From contig CAJFNZ010000035.1 of assembly GCA_904395905.1 (NCBI GenBank), positions 1 through 37,711 on the forward strand: DNA of 37,711 nucleotides, in the 5' to 3' direction. Below the pieces are notes generated by a model that was given only the letters and a program-made list of their open reading frames with translations, did no database searches and was not told the DNA's origin. Below, piece after piece: positions 5,598 to 7,882 of this stretch (its first letter is position 1; every line of letters begins with the position of its first letter). The position numbers and the translations under genes are program-made. This DNA is from an uncultured Oscillospiraceae bacterium (GTDB lineage: Bacteria > Bacillota > Clostridia > Oscillospirales > Oscillospiraceae).

Positions 5598-6065
5598 TCA
5601 CCCCTTCCCGTGGCCGGCGAAGTACTGGGCCAGCAGCGCCAGGCTCTCCTCCCGCAGGACGCCGCCGGTGACCGCCGGCCGGTGGGCCGAGTGGGAGAAC
5701 ACCAGCCGGGCGCAGTCGCTGCCCGGCTCCCCCAGCAGCGCGCCCAGGTCGCGGTCGCTGGCCCCGTAGACCAGCCGGCCGAGGCGGCACCAGACCATGG
5801 CCCCGCAGCACATGAAGCACGGCTCGCAGCTGGAATACAGCGTGTAATCCCGCAGGTCGGTGATGCCCGTCTCGGCGCAGAAGCGCCGCAGCAGGCCGGC
5901 CTCGGCGTGGAAGGTGGGGTCGGAGGCGGTGTAAATCTGGTTCTCGTTGGTGTAGACCACCCGGCCGTCGCGGACGAGCAGCGCGCCGAAGGGCTCGTTG
6001 CCGTGTTCCACGGCCCGGGCGGCCAGGTCGATGGCCTGGGCCATCCAGTGGGCGTCTCGGTTCAT
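5598..6065 (-). CDS. Nucleoside deaminase (cytidine/guanine/tRNA-adenosine deaminase superfamily)
   Basis: Zn-deaminase motifs 'TFHAEAGLL' (HAE) and 'SSCEPCFMCCGA' (PCxxC). Confidence 0.88.
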   Translation of the reverse strand: MNRDAHWMAQAIDLAARAVEHGNEPFGALLVRDGRVVYTNENQIYTASDPTFHAEAGLLRRFCAETGITDLRDYTLYSSCEPCFMCCGAMVWCRLGRLVYGASDRDLGALLGEPGSDCARLVFSHSAHRPAVTGGVLREESLALLAQYFAGHGKG

Positions 6066-6112: not shown

Positions 6113-6141
6113 ATTGTACCCGGGATCCCGGCAAATGGCAA
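6113..6141 (-). promoter_or_regulatory. Candidate promoter for the deaminase operon
   Basis: TTGCCA-N17-TACAAT on the - strand; the spacer contains the palindrome CCGGGATCCCGG. Confidence 0.5.
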
Positions 6142-6205: not shown

Positions 6206-6234
6206 TTGCACATTTGTGGAATTTGTCCTATACT
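6206..6234 (+). promoter_or_regulatory. SigA-type promoter of the + strand small membrane protein cassette
   Basis: TTGCAC (6206-6211), 17-nt spacer, TATACT (6229-6234), 66 nt upstream of the first ATG. Confidence 0.65.
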
Positions 6235-6299
6235 GGATTTGTAAGAGAATCCGGACCTGTGGAAAGCAGCCGGTCACCCCCACAGAAAGGAGACGCGCC

Positions 6300-6626
6300 A
6301 TGAGACGACGAGAACGCGACAGCTACGACGTCACCGATTCCCCTGCCGCCGCCTTTTTCAAAAGAACCTTCACGCCGGGATTCTGCCTGACCCTGCTGAT
6401 TTCGACCGCCACTCTCCTGGCTGGCACATCCCGCGTACCGTTCGTCGATAGGAGCGGCCACAAGGCTTTCAAAGCGTACGAGAAAGAGTACAGGGTCCCT
6501 ATGTACCCCAACGGTCTGCCCAGGGTCACGCTTCGGATGCGTCTGTCCCAGATACTCGGCAAGCCGGTTCGGAGCAGCGTCTTTCCAACCGACGACTTCG
6601 AGCCCGACCGCCCGGGGTTTGACTGA
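6300..6626 (+). CDS. Small membrane protein 1 of tandem cassette, 108 aa, single predicted TM, C-terminal DDFEPDRPGFD
   Basis: MRRRERDSYDVTDSPAAAFFKRTFTPGFCLTLLISTATLLAG...FPTDDFEPDRPGFD; RBS AAAGGAG; paralogous to the next ORF. Confidence 0.8.
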   Translation: MRRRERDSYDVTDSPAAAFFKRTFTPGFCLTLLISTATLLAGTSRVPFVDRSGHKAFKAYEKEYRVPMYPNGLPRVTLRMRLSQILGKPVRSSVFPTDDFEPDRPGFD

Positions 6627-6628
6627 GC
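6590..6628 (+). repeat. 39-nt direct repeat, copy 1 (end of cassette gene 1 through stop)
   Basis: CGACGACTTCGAGCCCGACCGCCCGGGGTTTGACTGAGC; 38/39 identical to 6833-6871. Confidence 0.9.
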
Positions 6629-6641
6629 GGGAGGTGCTCTC

Positions 6642-6869
6642 ATGAAGCGGGATAGCTATCATGTGACGGATCCCCCCATCGTCTCTTTCTTTAAGCGGTG
6701 GATTACCCCCTCTTTCTTCCTTGGTCTGCTGCTGGCCCTCGCCGGCCTGCTGATTGGTTCCGGCCCCGAAGGGCTAGACCTCATCCAGCCCCGCGACGCC
6801 AAGCCGCCCAAGCTGCCTGGCCGGTTCCCGTCCGACGACTTCGAGCCCGACCGCCCGGGGTTCGACTGA
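6642..6869 (+). CDS. Small membrane protein 2 of tandem cassette, 75 aa, single predicted TM, C-terminal DDFEPDRPGFD
   Basis: MKRDSYHVTDPPIVSFFKRWITPSFFLGLLLALAGLLIGS...FPSDDFEPDRPGFD; RBS GGGAGGTG. Confidence 0.85.
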   Translation: MKRDSYHVTDPPIVSFFKRWITPSFFLGLLLALAGLLIGSGPEGLDLIQPRDAKPPKLPGRFPSDDFEPDRPGFD

Positions 6870-6871
6870 GC
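6833..6871 (+). repeat. 39-nt direct repeat, copy 2 (end of cassette gene 2 through stop)
   Basis: CGACGACTTCGAGCCCGACCGCCCGGGGTTCGACTGAGC; 38/39 identical to 6590-6628. Confidence 0.9.
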
Positions 6872-6885
6872 AAGGAGGTGCCCCC

Positions 6886-7410
6886 ATGAAGCGCGACAGC
6901 TACCAGGTCACCGACACGCCGCGGATGGCGTTCTGCAAGCGGTGGTTCTCCCCGCCCCAGTGCATCGCCATGGGGTATCTGCTGTACGCGGTCGTGATGA
7001 GCATCGCCTTCCGGCACGCCCGGGTGGACGCCGGCGGCTACCTGCCTGAGATTGTCCGGGCGGGGGTTCCCCAGTCGGGCATGACCACCGCCATGGGCAC
7101 GGTGGACTTCCTGGTGGGACTGACGATTGCGGTGGCCACGGCGCGGGTCTTTGAGAGCTGGGGGCCCTTCCGCGGGCTGAATCTGGGCTTCCTCGGCGGC
7201 ATCTGGAACCTCAAGCTGTCCCGGAAGATTGCCGTCGTGCTCGTCCTGCTCCTCTACTACGCCGTGGCCATCCTGATTACCGCCCTCCTGCGGCGGCTGG
7301 GCGATGTCCAGCCCTTCTTCTGCTGGTTCCTCCCCACGGCCCTGCCAACCCTCTTCTATCTGGCCATGGCGGCCATCACCAAACGCCCGCCCAGCCAGGC
7401 CGTCCGCTGA
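6886..7410 (+). CDS. Multi-TM membrane protein 3 of tandem cassette, 174 aa
   Basis: MKRDSYQVTDTPRMAFCKRWFSPPQCIAMGYLLYAVVMSIAF... shares the N-terminal motif and has about four hydrophobic segments; RBS AAGGAGGTG. Confidence 0.85.
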   Translation: MKRDSYQVTDTPRMAFCKRWFSPPQCIAMGYLLYAVVMSIAFRHARVDAGGYLPEIVRAGVPQSGMTTAMGTVDFLVGLTIAVATARVFESWGPFRGLNLGFLGGIWNLKLSRKIAVVLVLLLYYAVAILITALLRRLGDVQPFFCWFLPTALPTLFYLAMAAITKRPPSQAVR

Positions 7411-7431
7411 CGGCGGTTCCCCATGCGAAAA

Positions 7432-7466
7432 CCGGGGCGCAGTTCTGCGCCCCGGCGTTTTTCTTT
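7432..7466. terminator. Bidirectional intrinsic terminator between convergent units
   Basis: CCGGGGCGCAG (7432-7442) / CTGCGCCCCGG (7445-7455) followed by CGTTTTTCTTT on +; TTTTCGC follows on -. Confidence 0.9.
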
Positions 7467-7492: not shown

Positions 7493-7882
7493 TCACGGCC
7501 GGCGGCGGCGTTTGGCGGCGGCGAAGTCGTAGGCGGCCTCCAGCCAGCCGTACAGCTCGCCGTCCAGGTCCGACGGCGCGATGACCGGGACGTGGTGCGT
7601 CCAGCGGCCGGGATACGGCTCCACGGCCTCGGCAATCCGCGGCAAGACGGCCCGCGCCCCCAGGCCGAAGGACACCAGCAGGCACGGCTCCGCCGGGAGG
7701 TTCCGCCGGCGGCCCGGCAGGGAGACCATCGCGTAAATCGGCCCGCGGCAGAAGGACAGCTGCGTCTTGCTGACCTTCACCGCCGTCTCCGGGCACCGGG
7801 CCAGCAGCCCCTCCCGCAAAGCCAGGTACAGCGGCAGCAGCGCCGGCCGGCGGCCGAAGAATTCCAGCTCCCCCGGCTCCAT
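7493..7882 (-). CDS. DUF5655-like protein
   Basis: ORF with 'VKVSKTQLSFCRGPIYAMVSLP...LLVSFGLG' resembling DUF5655; starts 2 nt from the stop of the upstream macro-domain gene. Confidence 0.65.
   Translation of the reverse strand: MEPGELEFFGRRPALLPLYLALREGLLARCPETAVKVSKTQLSFCRGPIYAMVSLPGRRRNLPAEPCLLVSFGLGARAVLPRIAEAVEPYPGRWTHHVPVIAPSDLDGELYGWLEAAYDFAAAKRRRRP

Follow-up and report, generated by a model that had tools for sequence, protein, structure and literature searches.

Introduction

Clusters of peptide precursors carry conserved leaders in tandem small open reading frames (ORFs), and the three-gene cassette described here, located in a 37,711-nucleotide stretch of an uncultured Oscillospiraceae genome (the window), recalls such clusters. 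Clusters of RiPP or bacteriocin precursors combine tandem small ORFs with a conserved amino-terminus and a variable remainder, as does the cassette. In contrast to them, its leader runs directly into a transmembrane (TM) segment, its third member is a four-pass protein, and the neighbouring genes examined comprise none for processing or export.

A second likeness is to the taxonomically restricted genes of Bacillus, in which TM motifs are common and some of which lie in paralogous clusters (PMC10003748). Like these Bacillus orphans, which are short, confined to one lineage and in many cases endowed with TM segments, the genes reported here form a paralogous cluster, but what the three neighbouring genes have in common is limited to a leader, which is constrained at the protein level, and two of them share a tail. 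The sequences are new, whereas their kind, orphan membrane genes in paralogous clusters, is already known.

Results and discussion

Three adjacent genes share an amino-terminal leader

An earlier note on this DNA had placed a set of three genes on the plus strand, and ORFs were found at exactly the coordinates it gave:

6300–6626, plus strand: gene 1, 108 amino acids; leader, one hydrophobic segment (~24–42) and a long basic tail ending FPTDDFEPDRPGFD
6642–6869, plus strand: gene 2, 75 amino acids; leader, one hydrophobic segment (~21–39) and a short acidic tail ending FPSDDFEPDRPGFD
6886–7410, plus strand: gene 3, 174 amino acids; leader and about four hydrophobic segments (24–42, 66–84, 117–135, 146–164), without the conserved tail

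For gene 1 the ATG at 6300 (MRRRERDSY...) is the true start, and the beginning quoted previously (RERDSY...) corresponds to residue 4 onward. The amino-terminal signature that had been reported as common to the three proteins holds, and comprises 23 residues, RDSYxVTDxP(3)FxKR(3)P, with a hydrophobic helix after it. The alignment of the three leaders is gapless over these 23 residues with 12 of the 23 columns invariant (RDSY-VTD-P---F-KR---P), protein 1 carrying three additional residues at its amino-terminus compared with proteins 2 and 3. Protein 3, used as the sole query against its own genome, matched the amino-termini of proteins 1 and 2 at E ~3e-4 and yielded no further match at E ≤ 10, and the similarity of the leaders is therefore beyond chance.

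A hydrophobic segment follows the leader in all three proteins, as previously described; protein 3 differs from the other two in having about four TM segments, which had been missed. The proposed role of the basic FxKR motif before the TM segment as a topology anchor agrees with the positive-inside, N-in pattern of proteins 2 and 3, whereas in protein 1 the tail is basic too, which leaves its orientation ambiguous. Likewise missed before was a carboxy-terminal tail, FP[S/T]DDFEPDRPGFD, which is common to proteins 1 and 2 and absent from protein 3. AlphaFold modelled proteins 3 and 1 with low confidence (pLDDT 54), and a fold search of the PDB gave no match below E 8.

In all three proteins the leader immediately precedes the first TM segment and contains the basic FxKR motif, an arrangement that would also suit a targeting or insertion signal, directing three separately acting proteins to a membrane insertase, the cell pole or the septum. 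General insertion signals are, however, less sequence-specific than this leader, and a search of the same genome found it in no other protein; we consider such a signal unlikely.

The three frames are coding and the leader is constrained as protein

Codon usage was scored in all six frames of each gene, after training on 27 ORFs from the minus strand of the window. In genes 1, 2 and 3 alike, the named frame came out best (−0.15, 0.16 and 0.62, with next-best frames at −0.60, −0.42 and −0.17, respectively); long antisense ORFs across the cassette were rejected, as their frames scored worse. Genes 1 and 2 score lower than all training genes (range 0.38–0.83), in keeping with their low GC3 of 0.73 and 0.79 compared to 0.87–0.96 in the 27 window genes, where gene 3 is ordinary (0.91). 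The atypically low GC3 of genes 1 and 2 suggests recent acquisition.

We compared the copies pairwise over their first 23 codons. The differences at codon positions 1/2/3 numbered 9/4/18, 6/2/15 and 9/5/14, a third-position excess with binomial P of 0.004, 0.002 and 0.05, respectively. Between copies the leader dN was 0.22–0.30; synonymous sites were saturated, and dS was not computable over 23 codons. From the third-position bias it follows that the leader was kept as protein while synonymous sites drifted. Together with the frame scores, this bias between copies of one genome identifies the three ORFs as genuinely coding. The apparent protein-level constraint on the leader, as judged from this comparison within one genome, is the main evidence for function.

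Expression signals bracket the cassette

6206–6234, plus strand: putative sigma-70-like promoter, TTGCAC-N17-TATACT or TGCACA-N16-TATACT; 9/12 in the consensus scan, weak −35
7432–7463, plus strand: intrinsic terminator, a 10-pair stem with 9 G-C pairs, then CGTTTTTCTT

The promoter put forward in the earlier note, TTGCAC (6206–6211) and TATACT (6229–6234) separated by 17 nt, is present with a good −10 element, but its −35 element fits the consensus at only 3 of 6 positions. The promoter scanner instead favours TGCACA-N16-TATACT (9/12), with 2 sites on both strands compared to 0.2 in shuffles. A promoter-like site on the minus strand at 6141–6113 may, by its position, serve the divergent deaminase gene. 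The good ribosome-binding sites (RBSs) and the strong terminator claimed for the unit were both borne out: AAAGGAG, GGGAGGTG and AAGGAGGTG are read directly from the sequence, and the terminator stem spans 7432–7455. With intergenic gaps of 15 and 16 nt, the three genes are bracketed by one promoter and one terminator. An Rfam search returned two matches, both sub-threshold.

These signals bear on the proposal that the genes are young orphans, duplicated and recently recruited ORFs of weak or no function and without a defined role. Their occurrence in one genome only and the atypical GC3 of genes 1 and 2 would fit this proposal, as would the Bacillus parallel (PMC10003748). Orphans of such type often encode TM segments. 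Yet the leader is constrained as protein with saturated synonymous divergence, and the RBSs and the terminator are intact, and we regard this reading as rather improbable.

A tandem repeat spans both gene junctions

Paralogy of the three genes is also visible in the DNA, where the tandem duplication postulated in the earlier note corresponds to a repeat with a spacing of 243–244 nt across the junctions of gene 2 with genes 1 and 3:

6582–6709, plus strand: junction repeat copy A; gene 1 tail, RBS, gene 2 leader
6825–6953, plus strand: junction repeat copy B; gene 2 tail, RBS, gene 3 leader

Because the repeat spans both junctions, gene 2 is the visible unit of the tandem duplication. In genes 1 and 2, the DNA that encodes the tail (6582–6628 and 6825–6871) is 91% identical, whereas past the tail, through the stop codon, the RBS and the next leader (6630–6709 and 6874–6953), the repeat copies are 70% identical. 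The tails are hence far less diverged than the leaders, although both lie within one tandem repeat. This gap suggests later gene conversion or a constraint at the DNA/RNA level; a simple duplication without either fails to account for a near-identical tail next to a diverged leader.

The explanation that we favour, while giving it somewhat less than an even chance, is an orphan operon that arose by partial duplication and shuffling and whose common cytoplasmic leader docks the three proteins into a membrane complex. Partial tandem duplication and domain shuffling would have made a lineage-specific three-gene operon, in which the 23-residue leader became attached to a four-pass protein and to two single-pass proteins that share a tail. 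The leader would lie inside the cell and mediate binding of the three proteins to each other or to a single shared partner. The resulting small membrane complex would be built around the four-pass protein 3 as core, while the single-pass proteins 1 and 2, their tails exposed, would serve as accessory subunits. That the proteins represent a new family of membrane complexes, with RDSYxVTDxP(3)FxKR as a portable leader for docking in the cytoplasm that was grafted onto unrelated membrane bodies so as to assemble them, appears doubtful to us. If the leader is indeed a docking module, the cassette would represent a simple route from duplicated parts to a new bacterial membrane complex; if not, it joins the large number of lineage-specific membrane genes still uncharacterised.

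Searches for relatives

The earlier note recognised no known family, and searches of four profile libraries bore this out: none of the three proteins matched a family in Pfam, PHROGs or PADLOC at E ≤ 1 or in NCBIfam at E ≤ 5. The PDB contained no relative of the three proteins, and a literature search for the motifs returned nothing relevant. No relative of the cassette was found in 99 close genomes, at the family level in ~400 genomes (leader profile and protein 3 as queries), at the order level in ~394 and 275 genomes, or at the class level in 391 genomes; these samples overlap and amount to ~1,000 related genomes in all. Similarly, no relative emerged from an exact-peptide scan of ~85,000 GTDB species, from plasmids and phages, or from IMG/VR, and DNA patterns for both motifs were absent from the viral contigs. 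A distant relative can escape both an exact-peptide scan and a profile that rests on two or three sequences, and within this sensitivity the cassette consists of taxonomically restricted orphan genes with no homologue outside one lineage.

Five weak profile matches were inspected and rejected as antisense or incidental. The match in G430 lies antisense within an intact gene, those in G684, G738 and G529 are antisense to what reads as an FtsK-type translocase, and that in G1104 falls within an open frame of >1,000 residues with an amino-terminal signal-like segment. Other order- and class-level matches, at E 0.001–0.01 per genome over ~390 genomes and several of them with stops, are at chance level.

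Homology detection failure accounts for many orphan genes (PMC7660931), and with profiles of two or three sequences and large scans that require exact peptides, the cassette could in principle belong to a known membrane family, for example as mobile-element cargo or a defence or immunity protein, and have diverged beyond the reach of sequence searches. Against this stand the lack of any PADLOC, PHROGs or Pfam match and of any mobile-element gene among the neighbours examined, and we deem it very unlikely.

Genomic neighbourhood and a cassette-free congener site

The minus-strand neighbours of the cassette are an M20 peptidase family gene, DUF188 and the deaminase on one side and, past the cassette, DUF5655, a putative macrodomain protein, so assigned by reading its sequence, and an esterase-like protein.

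7493–7882, minus strand: DUF5655 (PF18899) neighbour gene, 1 nt after the macrodomain gene stop codon; absent from the congener's cassette-free site

The conserved tail on two short single-pass proteins, with a four-pass partner next to them, raises the question whether genes 1 and 2 encode pheromone- or bacteriocin-like precursors whose DDFEPDRPGFD end is released outside the cell as a secreted peptide, gene 3 being an export or immunity protein. An exporter or immunity protein would have no need of the leader that gene 3 also carries, and none of the neighbouring genes examined encodes a processing peptidase, a modification enzyme or an ABC exporter; in view also of the missing family match, we judge this quite unlikely and retain the docking leader as the preferred reading.

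Among the congeners, the closest one that has the flanking genes (G004) carries them joined without the cassette, such that window positions 6042 and 7893 meet at L029 6568 and 6618, which argues for a lineage-specific gain (or a loss in G004). There the macrodomain gene abuts the deaminase gene with a stop/start overlap, GTGA (L029:6540–6660), and DUF188 and the M20 peptidase gene come next, giving a compact macrodomain–deaminase–DUF188–M20 peptidase operon from which both DUF5655 and the cassette are missing. The cassette is absent from all six congeners searched; their genomes are 82–95% complete, so single absences are weak, whereas the G004 junction is direct. Absence from all six favours gain in the present genome (G000) over loss in G004, and acquisition or formation of the cassette probably postdates the separation of this species from its congeners. 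With a cassette-free site in a congener, the orphan cassette offers an example of a recent gain (or loss) of genes whose position on the tree can be assigned.

Relatives of DUF5655 occur at other places in G003 and G006. Near the cassette, a long run of minus-strand ORFs (11621–35385) reads as cell-wall and division genes, with names assigned by reading only: MreB-, FtsZ-, FtsQ-, MurA-, MurG-, FtsW-, MraY-, MurF-, MurE-, penicillin-binding-, RsmH- and MraZ-like.
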